Positions 35,470 through 41,547 of a stretch of 64,000 bases of DNA are shown piece by piece. The first letter of the stretch is position 1, and every line of letters starts with the position of its first letter. The position numbers and the translations under genes were made by a program. The notes beneath the pieces are model-generated. The model had not been told where the DNA came from, did no database searches, and saw nothing but the letters and a program-made list of their open reading frames with translations. Source of the stretch: Hyphomonadaceae bacterium (GTDB lineage Bacteria; Pseudomonadota; Alphaproteobacteria; Caulobacterales; Aquidulcibacteraceae); contig JAIELJ010000009.1 in assembly GCA_019753105.1 (NCBI GenBank), positions 124,001 to 188,000 on the forward strand, written 5' to 3'.

Positions 35470-36528
35470 ATGAGTCTCCCGCGCAGACAGAACCGCTCGC
35501 GAAAGCGAGAACCCGCGTGGGCGTCCTGTTCGGAAGCGGATTTGCTCGCGCTCCGGTTCAAGGATCTGAAGCTTTCCATCTCAGGAACGTGGCTTGAAGA
35601 GCGGCTGGACGCTCTGCACGGGGAGCTAGACGCGCGCGGTATTCGCGTGCGCGCACATGCTTGGCTCTCCACCGAATGGTTCAGCCCGCACGACACGCCA
35701 GGGATCGCCATCCCGTTCTACCTCGCGCACCCGCGGCTGGCGCGGCTTGAACGCAAGATGGTGCTGGAGGTTGAGGGCGGCACGCAGCGCGAGTGCATGC
35801 GCATTCTGCGTCACGAAGCAGGGCACGTGGTGCAGCGCGCCTATGGTCTGCATCGCCGCGCCGCGTGGCGCAAAGTGTTCGGCAGCGCAGCGAAGCCTTA
35901 TCCGGAATTCTATCGCCCGAACCCGACGAGCAAAAATCACGTGCAGCACCTGCGCCGTTGGTACGCGCAGTGCCACCCGGACGAGGATTTCGCCGAGACG
36001 TTCGCTGTCTGGCTGACGCCACGCTCAGGCTGGCGCAAGCATTACGCGGAATGGCCGGGAGCTCTGAAGAAACTTGAATATGTCGATGAGCTTATGAGCG
36101 AACTTGCCGGTGTGCGGCCGCCAGCGAAGCCGCGCACCAAGATGGAGCCGCTCTCGGCGCTCACCACGACGCTTCAGGAACACTATGAAGAAAAGCGAGC
36201 GCGGTTCTCCGTGGAGACACCACACGTGCTCGATCGCGATCTGACGCGGATTTTTTCCAAGGAGAGCCGCAGTCGCGCTGCGCCTCCGGCGGCGTCCCTC
36301 ATTCGCAAGCACCGCAACAAGATCATGCGCTCAGTGGCGCGTTGGTCGGGCGAGTATCCGTTGGCTTTGGATCATGCAATTGACGACATCATCGATCGGA
36401 CGCGCGCTTTGAAGCTGCGGGCGGCGGGCGGTGAAAAGCGCATCCGCGATGAACTCACCGAGTTGCTCACCGCGAAATCTGTGATGTCGCTCTATAGCTC
36501 CGGTCGTCGGCAGACGTTCGCGGTATGA
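35470..36528 (+). CDS. putative zinc metallopeptidase, coupled to ATP-grasp gene
   Basis: 352 residues, not a family I can name with certainty. The zinc motif HEAGH (His115, Glu116, His119) is in CMRILRHEAGHVVQRAYGL. Glu176 in DEDFAETFAVWLTP, 57 residues on, fits the third ligand of a gluzincin. There is no signal peptide or membrane helix, so it is cytoplasmic. The first 15 residues are very basic. The C-terminal 120 residues are helical without a known motif. Its TGA overlaps the ATG of the following ATP-grasp ligase (ATGA). A cytoplasmic peptidase paired with a peptide-bond-forming enzyme suggests make-and-trim processing of a peptide; that is inference. Confidence 0.6.
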   Translation: MSLPRRQNRSRKREPAWASCSEADLLALRFKDLKLSISGTWLEERLDALHGELDARGIRVRAHAWLSTEWFSPHDTPGIAIPFYLAHPRLARLERKMVLEVEGGTQRECMRILRHEAGHVVQRAYGLHRRAAWRKVFGSAAKPYPEFYRPNPTSKNHVQHLRRWYAQCHPDEDFAETFAVWLTPRSGWRKHYAEWPGALKKLEYVDELMSELAGVRPPAKPRTKMEPLSALTTTLQEHYEEKRARFSVETPHVLDRDLTRIFSKESRSRAAPPAASLIRKHRNKIMRSVARWSGEYPLALDHAIDDIIDRTRALKLRAAGGEKRIRDELTELLTAKSVMSLYSSGRRQTFAV

Positions 36529-37553
36529 AAGAGAACCTTCGCGTCCTCGTTCTTTGCCATCCGGACGGCGTGCCGCCGGCGACGATGGAAGGTCTCTCGC
36601 CCAAAGAGATCGACTTCTACAAAACTGAATACGACGTCATCACCACGCTCTGCGAACTCGGCCACGAAGTGCGCGTGTTGGGCGTTCAATACGATCTGAA
36701 ACCGATCCGCGACACGATCGAGGATTGGAAACCGGATGTGGTTTTCAACCTGCTGATCGAGTTTCACGGCGAGGCGGTCTACGGCCAAAACATCGCAAGC
36801 TTCCTTGAGCTGATGCGGGTGCCGTACACCGGCTGCAATCCGCGCGGCCAAGTGTTGGCGCAGGGCAAGGATCTGTCGAAGAAGCTTCTGAAGTACCACC
36901 GCATCGCGACGCCAGCTTTCGCTGTGTTCAATCCAGGGCGCGTTGTGCGCCGGCCGGGTAGGTTGCGTTTTCCGTTGATCGTGAAGAGCACGATTGAGGA
37001 TGCCTCGATGGGTATTTCGCAGGCGTCCGTGGTCGAGAGTGATGAAAAGCTCGCCGAGCGGGTCAAGTTTGTCCACGAACTGTGCGGCACGCCAGCGATC
37101 GCCGAGCAATACATCGACGGTCGCGAGATATATGTTGGCGTGTTCGGCAATGAGCGGCTGAAGGCGCTCCCCGTCTGGGAGTTGCAGTTCGAGAAGCTGA
37201 CACCGGGCACGCTGCCGATCGCGACCGAACGCGTGAAACGAAACATTCGTCACCAAGAGCGCATCGGCCTAGCGCAAGGGCCTGCGCTCGATTTGTCGAA
37301 CGGGCAGGGCAATCGTATTCGCGAAGCCGCGAAGCGCATTTGCCGGGTGCTCGATCTCGACGGCTATTGCCGCATCGACTTCCGCTTGGGGCGCGACGGC
37401 GTGCCGTATTTCATCGAAGCTAATCCCAATCCGGAAATCGCGCGCTCGGAAGAGTTCGCGCAATCTGCTGCGCACGATGGCGTCCAGTATCCCGAACTGA
37501 TCAGCCGCATCCTCGCGCTCGCTATTTCGCGGACGGGCGCTGAGGTGGAATAA
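36525..37553 (+). CDS. ATP-grasp ligase, D-Ala-D-Ala ligase-like
   Basis: 342 residues. ATP-grasp features in order: LIEFHGEAVYGQNIASFLEL and PYTGCNPRGQVLAQGKDLSK (Ddl-type substrate loop region), PLIVKSTIEDASMGIS (ATP lysine 154), AEQYIDGREIYVGVFG (Glu194), YCRIDFRLG (Asp285) and YFIEANPNPEIA (Glu298, Asn300, metal ligands). It is close to D-Ala-D-Ala ligases but lies outside the mur/ftsZ cluster, and its partner is a putative peptidase. It is therefore more likely a ligase for another amino acid or peptide. It ends two bases before a convergent amino acid permease. Confidence 0.75.
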   Translation: MKENLRVLVLCHPDGVPPATMEGLSPKEIDFYKTEYDVITTLCELGHEVRVLGVQYDLKPIRDTIEDWKPDVVFNLLIEFHGEAVYGQNIASFLELMRVPYTGCNPRGQVLAQGKDLSKKLLKYHRIATPAFAVFNPGRVVRRPGRLRFPLIVKSTIEDASMGISQASVVESDEKLAERVKFVHELCGTPAIAEQYIDGREIYVGVFGNERLKALPVWELQFEKLTPGTLPIATERVKRNIRHQERIGLAQGPALDLSNGQGNRIREAAKRICRVLDLDGYCRIDFRLGRDGVPYFIEANPNPEIARSEEFAQSAAHDGVQYPELISRILALAISRTGAEVE

Positions 37554-39256: not shown

Positions 39257-39547
39257 ATGGCGAAACACGGCGCAACGGCGCTCAGTATCGGGTTGGGGGC
39301 AGCAATCCTGTACCTCGGCGCGCACGCCGTTACGGGCCGCCAGGGCCTCGTCGCGTACGTAGATCTGCAGGCGCAGCAACGTACCCTGGAGAGCCGCCTC
39401 GATGCGGTTGAGGCCGAGCGCGCTGAGCTTGAAGCGCGCGCCGCGCGCCTGCGGGCTGAGACGCTCGATCTTGATTACCTCGACGAGCGGGCGCGCGTGA
39501 CGCTTGCCGCGGGCGACAGTGAAGAGATCGTGTTCGCGCTCGACTAA
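39257..39547 (+). CDS. ftsB: septum formation initiator FtsB/DivIC
   Basis: 96 residues: a short cytoplasmic start, one membrane helix (about 9-27), then a periplasmic coiled coil with heptads from residue 37 (QQRTLESRLDAVEAERAELE) and the family ending LDYLDERARVTLAAGDSEEI. FtsB joins FtsL and FtsQ to signal activation of septal synthesis by FtsWI. The place between eno and pdhA is standard in alphaproteobacteria. Four-base convergent overlap with the TIR gene. The promoter is rich in GANTC sites. Confidence 0.92.
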   Translation: MAKHGATALSIGLGAAILYLGAHAVTGRQGLVAYVDLQAQQRTLESRLDAVEAERAELEARAARLRAETLDLDYLDERARVTLAAGDSEEIVFALD

Positions 39548-40707
39548 AGCCGTAGCGGCGCGCCATCCGCCGTCACCAGGACGTCGTCGCGCGCCCAGCC
39601 GGTCTGGCCAGTTTCGAGTTGCAGCTGATACCAGCGATGCTCGCCCTGCTGGATGCGGCCAGTCACAACGACAGTCGCGCCCGCCTCCAACCGCACGATC
39701 CGCGGCGCCCGCGTGCCGGGGCGGGTGCGGACGTTCGCGCCGGCGCGGCCTGTGCGCGCTTCAACGGAGGGTTCAATGGGTGTCACGCCGGCGATAGGAC
39801 GCGCCGCCGCCGCCGCTTGGTTCACCGCCACGCTTTGATGCACGAAGCCAACGCGGCCGTCGTCGAGCACGACGCGGAACCACCAATCGCCTTGCACTTG
39901 GATGCGCCCGTTGACATTCAGCGGCGCATTCGCAGGCAGCTCCTGCAGAATAGTGGCGCTCGGCAGCGGATAATTACGCACGTTTGCGCCGCCACGGCCG
40001 GCCATTAGCGGGCGCTCTGGCGTGTATTCGTGCGCTGAGACATTGCTGCCGTCGGGCGGTGCTTCGTCGCGTTGTGGTGCAAGCAAAATTGAAGACGCCT
40101 CAGCCCACATCCCCCCCAAGCCGTTGCGCACCGGCGTGCTGGTGGCGGCGAAATAAACAAAGCCAGCCGCCCCAAAGAGGATGCTCAAGCGCAGCCAGGG
40201 AATGCCGACGCGCCGGCGTGAACGCGGCGCATAATAGGGATCGTATGCCTCGCGCGGAGGCGGAGCGGGCGGTGAGGGGCGCGGCGGACGCAAGGTTACG
40301 CGGTCGCGTTTGGAGCGCAGCGCGGCTTCAAGCTGCTTTTGGCCCGCATAGAAGCCGGACTCGCGCACGACAGGATCGGAATAGAAGAGGATGTAGTTCC
40401 GTTCCGCCAAAAACTCTGGCGGGCGCCCTTCAAGTGGCTCCGGCAAGACGGGGATCACGCGCCGACCTAGGCGCTGCGCTTCGATGATCTCCCATTCGCA
40501 CTCGATCGCTTCAGCGGACGCGTCCGTGAGTACGAACACCACGGCTTCGGCCTCGGAGAGCGCGGCTGTGATGCGCGGCCGCCAGATGTCCGCCGAGCCA
40601 ACATCGCGATTGTCTATGATCGGCCTAAAGCCCCGGTCGCGCAGAAACGCGCAGACTTGGTAGGTCCAGTCGGAATCCACCCGTGTCGCGGAGACAAACA
40701 CCTTCAT
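39544..40707 (-). CDS. TIR domain, transmembrane, double SH3b protein
   Basis: 387 residues in three parts. Residues 1-130 are a TIR domain: MKVFVSATRVDSDWTYQVCA, then SEAEAVVFVLTDASAEAIEC and EWEIIEA, where Trp72 and Glu76 fit the W-x3-E pattern of the catalytic glutamate in NAD-cleaving TIR domains. A proline-rich, basic linker (140-166, ending PRSRRR) precedes one membrane helix (about 171-189). After it come two SH3b domains (about 236-298 and 318-387) with paired RGGANVRNYPLPSA and RAGANVRTRPGTRA. By the positive-inside rule the TIR is cytoplasmic and the SH3b pair periplasmic. No Shine-Dalgarno is obvious. A sensor of the cell wall tied to a cytoplasmic effector is inferred. Confidence 0.78.
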   Translation of the reverse strand: MKVFVSATRVDSDWTYQVCAFLRDRGFRPIIDNRDVGSADIWRPRITAALSEAEAVVFVLTDASAEAIECEWEIIEAQRLGRRVIPVLPEPLEGRPPEFLAERNYILFYSDPVVRESGFYAGQKQLEAALRSKRDRVTLRPPRPSPPAPPPREAYDPYYAPRSRRRVGIPWLRLSILFGAAGFVYFAATSTPVRNGLGGMWAEASSILLAPQRDEAPPDGSNVSAHEYTPERPLMAGRGGANVRNYPLPSATILQELPANAPLNVNGRIQVQGDWWFRVVLDDGRVGFVHQSVAVNQAAAAARPIAGVTPIEPSVEARTGRAGANVRTRPGTRAPRIVRLEAGATVVVTGRIQQGEHRWYQLQLETGQTGWARDDVLVTADGAPLRL

Positions 40708-40923: not shown

Positions 40924-41547
40924 ATGATGTTGACGTTCAAAGACAATAAAATTGAGGTGGTCCGCGGCGCGGTAGAGCCGCAGATGCTGGGCGTTGCCCA
41001 ACGTATGGTTCGCCAGGTTCTCTGGAAGCTCGCCCGATCTCCAGCCCCCCATTTCAAGTCGGACGGGCAAGTTGCGTTACGCAATTACATCGGCCGCCTC
41101 AGCGTCACTGAAGCGTTGATGTACGCGCTCACACCGAGGGTATCGTCGATCGTCGGCGCTGAACTCGTGCCCACCTATTCATATCCAGTGATCAATTTTC
41201 CCGGTGCGGAACTGACGCGCCACACTGATCGCCCGGCATGTGAAGTCACGGCGACGCTGACCATTCTGAATGAGCCGGAAGAGATTTGGCCGATTTTCGT
41301 CGAGGAAAATGGGGTTGCGCATCAGATCGACCTGAGCGCCGGCGACCTGGCGATCTATGACGGCATTTCTCATCCGCACTGGCGCGAGCCCCAGACGGAG
41401 GGGCACTACAATATCTCCGTGTTCTACCATTACGTAGTGGTCGGTGGGCCCTTCGAGGAATGGCACAAGCGCGAGCTCACGGCGCACCCAGAACTCATGG
41501 CGCTCTACGCACCAGACCCGCTCCGTACTCTGTTCCCAAAGCCCTGA
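40924..41547 (+). CDS. 2OG-Fe(II) oxygenase-like protein
   Basis: 207 residues. The iron-binding pattern His100-x-Asp102 is in PGAELTRHTDRPACEVTATL, and a distal His (150 or 152) in DLAIYDGISHPHWREP, followed by strands to VFYHYVVVGG. This is the jelly-roll arrangement of prolyl-hydroxylase-type 2-oxoglutarate oxygenases. The first 85 residues are not recognisable. Substrate is unknown. Base composition appears slightly more AT-rich than the neighbours, so recent transfer is possible. The next inverted repeat begins one base after its stop codon. Confidence 0.65.
   Translation: MMLTFKDNKIEVVRGAVEPQMLGVAQRMVRQVLWKLARSPAPHFKSDGQVALRNYIGRLSVTEALMYALTPRVSSIVGAELVPTYSYPVINFPGAELTRHTDRPACEVTATLTILNEPEEIWPIFVEENGVAHQIDLSAGDLAIYDGISHPHWREPQTEGHYNISVFYHYVVVGGPFEEWHKRELTAHPELMALYAPDPLRTLFPKP

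Follow-up and report, generated by a model that had tools for sequence, protein, structure and literature searches.

What is a TIR protein that ends in two SH3b domains doing beside a cell division gene? Most bacterial TIR proteins of known role act in defence or virulence. The protein analysed here, of 387 amino acids, is encoded next to ftsB in a 64,000-nucleotide stretch of a Hyphomonadaceae genome (contig JAIELJ010000009.1, positions 124,001 to 188,000; hereafter, the window). The features under discussion are, in window coordinates:

39257..39547, plus strand: ftsB (DivIC family), the convergent neighbour (Pfam 40.8 bits, cut-off 28.9)
39544..39547, no strand assigned: overlap of the two stop codons, 4 nt (ORF coordinates)
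39544..40707, minus strand: TIR-(TM)-SH3b-SH3b protein, 387 aa (ORF call and Pfam; orthologs)
39589..39741, minus strand: SH3b domain 2, residues 323-373 (SH3_3, 41.3 bits)
39832..39993, minus strand: SH3b domain 1, residues 239-292 (SH3_3, 33.0 bits, cut-off 27)
40147..40203, minus strand: marginal membrane helix, residues 169-187 (Kyte-Doolittle 1.50)
40213..40314, minus strand: linker rich in Pro and Arg, residues 132-165 (own and ortholog sequences)
40378..40701, minus strand: TIR_2 domain, residues 3-110 (Pfam 60.3 bits, cut-off 28)
40489..40491, minus strand: Glu73, a conserved catalytic-type Glu in the context Cys70-x-Trp72-Glu73 (Glu in 35 of 38 aligned TIRs)

The TIR domain and the two SH3b domains named in the initial annotation were both recovered by Pfam over cut-off, SH3_3 matching in two stretches with 65.6 bits against a cut-off of 27. 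Across the whole of the same genome (G000), SH3_3 gives three matches with E up to 0.01; the window protein accounts for two, and the third scores below cut-off. TIR_2 gives 19 matches at E up to 1, of which 16 have E up to 0.001. The domain order is common to the orthologs and under purifying selection, and so is not a product of chance.

Orthologs were found in 10 of the 30 genomes of the genus, and full-length relatives within this genus alone: among 385 sampled genomes of the class, with up to four candidates scored in each, no further full-length match was obtained and two matches covered the TIR only. The gene adjoins ftsB in all ten carriers, lying downstream of and convergent to it in three (G000, the window genome, G011 and G001) and upstream of and divergent to it in seven (G003, G004, G007, G041, G044, G020 and G024). 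Mapped onto a tree of eno, ftsB and pdhA, presence of the gene in the ten carriers takes a single change, and so does each of its two positions, downstream and upstream; the branch uniting the ten is weakly supported (26/57; 22% of bootstrap trees). This distribution agrees with a single gain and a single change of position without loss, on a count that cannot separate gain from loss.

Selection was assessed as pN and pS, dN/dS being unreliable where pS exceeds about 0.7 and is saturated. Between G011 and G001, pN was 0.000 both in the TIR (pS 0.19, 131 codons) and in the first SH3b domain (pS 0.33, 60 codons), and between G003 and G004 it was 0.042 and 0.030 respectively; a distant pair, G003 and G024, was less conserved (TIR pN 0.286, pS 0.60). 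Purifying selection is strong and both ends of the protein are kept, unlike in a decaying or fast-diversifying immune gene. Taken together, these analyses identify a real, conserved and genus-restricted gene product.

The initial annotation had read this product as a wall-to-cytoplasm signalling or suicide device. In a phage-defence suicide system, the SH3b domains would sense damage done to the wall by injection or lysins, the TIR would deplete NAD+ and the cell would die. TIR domains are common effectors of defence systems, and two relatives within the genus, L061 (TIR-nSTAND1-TM-FGE) and L057, are built in the style of the conflict systems presented in passages of PMC7159879 and PMC8195603. 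We scanned the window protein and eight of its neighbours, ftsB not among them, with PADLOC. The protein itself returned weak TIR matches alone (E 0.0052 and 0.027), while an amino-acid permease two genes away matched the candidate-defence model 'AA transporter' (55.9 bits, E 1.3e-15), a further point for suicide; the same gene reads as an ordinary permease in Pfam. The earlier statement that no known defence partner lies nearby thus holds in so far as none was clear among the eight PADLOC-scanned neighbours, with the permease as a qualification. That lack of a clear partner speaks against suicide, as does the lack of an NTPase domain in the window protein by Pfam; among eight Pfam-scanned neighbours, this time with ftsB included, no STAND or MoxR-type match exceeded its cut-off. 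Strong conservation and a one-branch distribution that fits vertical descent also weigh against it. Searches of plasmids, phages and viral contigs found no relative, in collections that cannot prove absence, and a mobile or phage origin was accordingly set aside. Because the gene is present in one branch and has no mobile relatives among those searched, unlike a mobile defence gene, a vertical and non-defence reading is favoured, and we regard suicide in phage defence as unlikely.

Membership of Thoeris was likewise rejected. The likeness to ThsB is the TIR, on which the window protein scores weakly (PADLOC E 0.027); it reaches 17 bits against a cut-off of 220 on the NCBIfam model ThcB4, and a ThsA-like neighbour is absent among the eight genes scanned.

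A single membrane helix with the TIR inside and the SH3b domains outside had also been proposed. As a measure of the helix we used the highest Kyte-Doolittle mean over 19 residues around its expected position, compared with 500 shuffles of the part that follows the TIR. The seven upstream-type orthologs gave means of 2.71, 2.47, 2.63, 2.25, 1.87, 2.38 and 2.52, reached by 0 to 21 of 500 shuffles. The window protein gave 1.50, reached by 92 of 500, and G011 and G001 gave 0.77 each, reached by 464 and 485 of 500. The proposed helix is therefore strong in seven of the ten orthologs; in the window protein it is marginal, and neither G011 nor G001 shows one. Basic residues are more numerous before the helix than after it in 10/10 orthologs, charges that favour an N-in orientation. 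The TonB_C domain works in the periplasm, and it lies over the Pfam cut-off beyond the SH3b part in two kin of the window protein, L056 and L157, which supports an outside location for SH3b. SH3b relatives without a TIR, from other genera of the family (L132, L141, L146 and L148), also carry SH3b after a membrane helix. The best-supported reading of the family is an envelope sensor with its TIR predicted inside and its SH3b domains outside; for the window protein itself, whose helix is uncertain, the same topology is plausible and somewhat probable.

The weak hydrophobicity of the three-genome branch raises an alternative confined to the window's lineage, namely that the helix has decayed, leaving a cytoplasmic or peripheral protein whose role has changed or is failing. 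The means of 1.50, 0.77 and 0.77 would agree with this, and in a comparison of G000 with G011 the TM region exceeds every other domain in pN (0.366). However, the TIR and the first SH3b domain are still constrained in this branch, a P-W-[LF]-R boundary motif is retained, and about 15 hydrophobic residues remain in the window protein, so that we consider such decay very improbable.

A catalytic W-x3-E pattern had been assigned to Trp72 and Glu76. We aligned the TIRs of the ten orthologs with 28 others, comprising the 18 other TIR matches of the same genome and ten from relatives. The column of Glu73 is Glu in 10/10 orthologs and in 25/28 other TIRs, the three exceptions (D, D and L) being divergent, weaker matches of the own genome. 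That of Glu76 is Glu in just eight of the ten orthologs (A in G003, H in G007) and in two of the 28 others, which led us to reject Glu76 as the catalytic residue. Weak matches to TLR2/15 and to SARM1/TIR-1 (E 0.015 to 0.15 for the latter) both set the canonical Glu on residue 73. Since the conserved and canonical Glu column is 73, the Trp72/Glu76 pair is a coincidence three residues out of register; a conserved acidic position exists, at another residue than the one first named. The canonical Trp position, 69, is Glu in the window protein and E, L, V, M or Q across the ten orthologs; it is Trp in 11 of the 28 other TIRs, where with Glu at 73 it forms the canonical W-x3-E. The correction has a practical side, in that the Glu76 mutant proposed earlier would test the wrong residue.

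The bacterial TIR NADases (AbTir, TcpC and Brucella BtpA/BtpB) and SARM1 have the TIR profile in common with the window protein, whose conserved Glu stands in register with their catalytic Glu of helix C. Unlike them, it has no canonical WxxxE Trp and carries fused SH3b domains, its NADase activity is putative, and one ortholog (G020) has, by alignment, lost the BB-loop region. Passages in PMC11374754 state that the Glu of WxxxE is needed by most bacterial TIR NADases, and that conservation of the Trp is strong where cyclic ADPR is made and weaker in TIRs that are non-catalytic or yield non-cyclic products. Because the canonical Trp is missing, the TIR, if active, would more likely make plain ADP-ribose than cyclic ADP-ribose. 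Two orthologs have lost parts of the domain: of the 112 TIR positions aligned, 17 are missing from G020, around strand B, the BB loop and helix B, and nine from G024, the remainder being retained in each. By alignment, the BB loop and helix B are present in the window protein, shortened in G024 and lost in G020. Enzyme activity may therefore not be general in the family.

These losses also bear on a non-enzymatic explanation, in which the TIR would be a module for self-association or docking and the protein a scaffold linking a partner in the cytoplasm with the envelope or with the site of division. The absence of the canonical Trp is consistent with a scaffold, as is the shortened TIR core of G020 and G024 beside a retained SH3b part; identity to the window protein is higher in the first SH3b domain than in the TIR in 7/7 orthologs compared, and adjacency to ftsB in every carrier would suit a role at the division site. 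Nevertheless, Glu73 is kept in all ten orthologs, G020 and G024 included, and the linkage to ftsB may be accidental. We therefore view a scaffold as possible, if doubtful.

The neighbourhood of ftsB was compared across the genus, where an ftsB match was present in 29 of the 30 genomes. The stop codons of ftsB and the TIR-SH3b gene do overlap, as the initial annotation stated, in positions 39544-39547, and the layout of the window recurs in G011 and G001, where the ftsB match runs to +287 and that to TIR-SH3b starts at +290. A search for the same domain order and neighbours, suggested at the outset, thus returned ten genus genomes with the gene beside ftsB in each, and the overlap in three only. 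Since the gene sits on the opposite side of ftsB in the seven other carriers, the overlap in itself says little, and a functional meaning for this trait of three close genomes was discarded. The linkage itself is no proof of a functional link, because the interval between eno and ftsB holds different ORFs in other species (ORFs called mechanically).

Several other genes of this region deserve mention. At least four of the seven upstream-type carriers have a membrane kinase of MASE1-HisKA-HATPase type in the interval from eno to the TIR-SH3b gene, identified by Pfam in G004 (L052:7035-8642, plus strand) and by similar N-termini in G007, G024 and G044; in G004 a cysteine-dioxygenase-like gene stands between the kinase and the TIR-SH3b gene, and G020, the fifth carrier compared, has other genes in the interval. 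Within the window, at 35470-37553 (plus strand), a Peptidase_Mx-like gene overlaps by 4 nt a gene for a D-Ala-D-Ala-ligase-like ATP-grasp protein. The two occur together near ftsB in 4 of 29 genomes by tblastn, and are possibly a small modification system. A 207-aa protein (40924-41547, plus strand) is found in the ftsB region of the own genome only, among the 29, and has no match in Pfam, NCBIfam or PADLOC; by eye it shows an H-x-D ... H pattern that we take to be like that of 2-oxoglutarate oxygenases.

The pairing of TIR and SH3b is not confined to the ftsB locus. In all, 13 TIR + SH3b proteins were found, in 12 of the 30 genus genomes. Besides the ten orthologs these are L057 (TIR-nSTAND1-TM-SH3b) and L056 and L131/L157 (both TIR-TM-SH3b-TonB_C), which have TIR, SH3b and the predicted TM in common with the window protein but are longer and end in a TonB_C or TonB_C-like tail; that of L057, taken alone, scores 18.7 bits on TonB_C against a cut-off of 24.6 and is unlisted in the whole-protein scan at E 0.01. 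There are three SH3b domains each in L056 and L057 and one in L157, compared with two in the window protein. Each of the three was found once, and in none of the three genomes does it share a contig with ftsB. L157:3520-5904 (plus strand, in G007) encodes 794 aa with TIR, DUF6232, SH3b and TonB_C over cut-off, and with hydrophobic helices. Against the SH3b part of the window protein, those of L057, L056 and L131 score 106, 87 and 39 bits. Outside the genus, SH3b loci were fetched from an order sample of 200 genomes (up to 17 candidates scored in each) and a phylum sample of 398 (up to eight in each); their SH3b parts score 57 bits at best, and no TIR was found in the loci tested, using a profile made here.

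A TIR tree of 29 rows and 139 columns was built from the ten orthologs, L131 and 18 other TIRs (eight of the 18 other matches of the own genome and ten from relatives). In it the ten orthologs cluster together (97/95) and L056 is placed next to them (97/94); L057 falls with L061, the TIR-nSTAND1-TM-FGE protein (96/85), and L131/L157 with a TIR of the own genome (95/84). The TIR + SH3b label changes at least three times on well-supported branches. If these changes are gains, TIR and TM-SH3b were joined on three occasions; a history of one gain plus two losses needs just as many changes.

Domains of this kind beyond a membrane segment have a precedent. Kaur et al. 2020 (PMC7159879) deal with conflict systems where a TM segment is followed by SH3, PEGA, OmpA, PASTA or Sel1 domains presumed to contact the wall, and the NTPase systems treated there combine intracellular signalling domains, a TM segment and peptidoglycan-type domains beyond it, as predicted here. 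The window protein differs in having no NTPase domain, no vWA/MoxR partner seen and a stand-alone gene. Searches of the open-access literature for TIR with SH3 or SH3b, for membrane- or wall-linked bacterial TIR and for TIR expansions gave no account of such a domain arrangement among the entries listed. The principle is already known and was anticipated by Kaur et al. 2020; those searches brought up no stand-alone TIR-TM-SH3b protein free of an NTPase. Peptidoglycan binding is established for the SH3b domain of lysostaphin (PMC6461655), a domain that may differ in ligand from those of the window protein.

We tentatively propose, as the best explanation, a vertically inherited chromosomal envelope sensor with a TIR output, which retains the signalling half of the original proposal and leaves its suicide half less favoured. 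Both SH3b domains would lie outside the inner membrane and bind peptidoglycan or another periplasmic ligand; loss or gain of that ligand would alter how the chains associate across the membrane, and the TIR domains on the inner side would be brought together to act, with NAD+ cleavage through Glu73 as the likeliest reaction. The domains, orthology, linkage, constraint and recurrent pairing on the tree are observed; we infer the topology, ligand, trigger, enzyme activity and physiological role of this sensor. A sensor is favoured by domains that exceed their cut-offs, by strong constraint, and by a Glu73 and a surplus of basic residues before the helix that are each common to 10/10 orthologs; by the recurrent pairing of TIR with SH3b, the kin with TonB_C and the SH3b that follows a helix in TIR-less relatives; and by the precedent of SH3, PEGA and Sel1 domains beyond TM segments in NTPase conflict systems, as passages of PMC7159879 present them. 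It is weakened by a helix of only marginal strength in the window protein, with none detected in G011 or G001, by the absence of the Trp in 10/10 orthologs, by the TIR losses of G020 and G024, which speak against obligatory NADase activity, and by the low support of the carrier branch (26/57); SH3b-type domains may, moreover, bind proteins rather than wall.

The TIR repertoire of the genus is broad. All 30 genomes searched carry TIR_2 matches (E up to 0.001), 8-25 in each. Among the architectures, Pfam shows TIR-DUF805, TIR-nSTAND1-TM-FGE and TIR with Sel1 (the TIR below cut-off), and others with TPR-like or WD40-like parts were read by eye. Tandem TIR matches about 1 kb apart occur in at least 25 of the 30 genomes (counted by eye); in G000 (C2:375994-377295, L034) the first of the pair is TIR-DUF805.

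With 8-25 TIR_2 matches per genome, the genus is a natural place to ask about roles of TIR outside immunity. We offer as a speculation, and think it rather doubtful, that the genus repeatedly built Toll-receptor-like proteins, with wall-binding SH3b domains on the outer side, a single membrane helix and a TIR enzyme on the inner side, that would turn envelope damage into an NAD-derived signal in ordinary growth and division and not in phage defence, of which the ftsB-side member became fixed in one branch. A vertically kept TIR with wall-binding-type domains would give a handle on TIR signalling in ordinary envelope biology.
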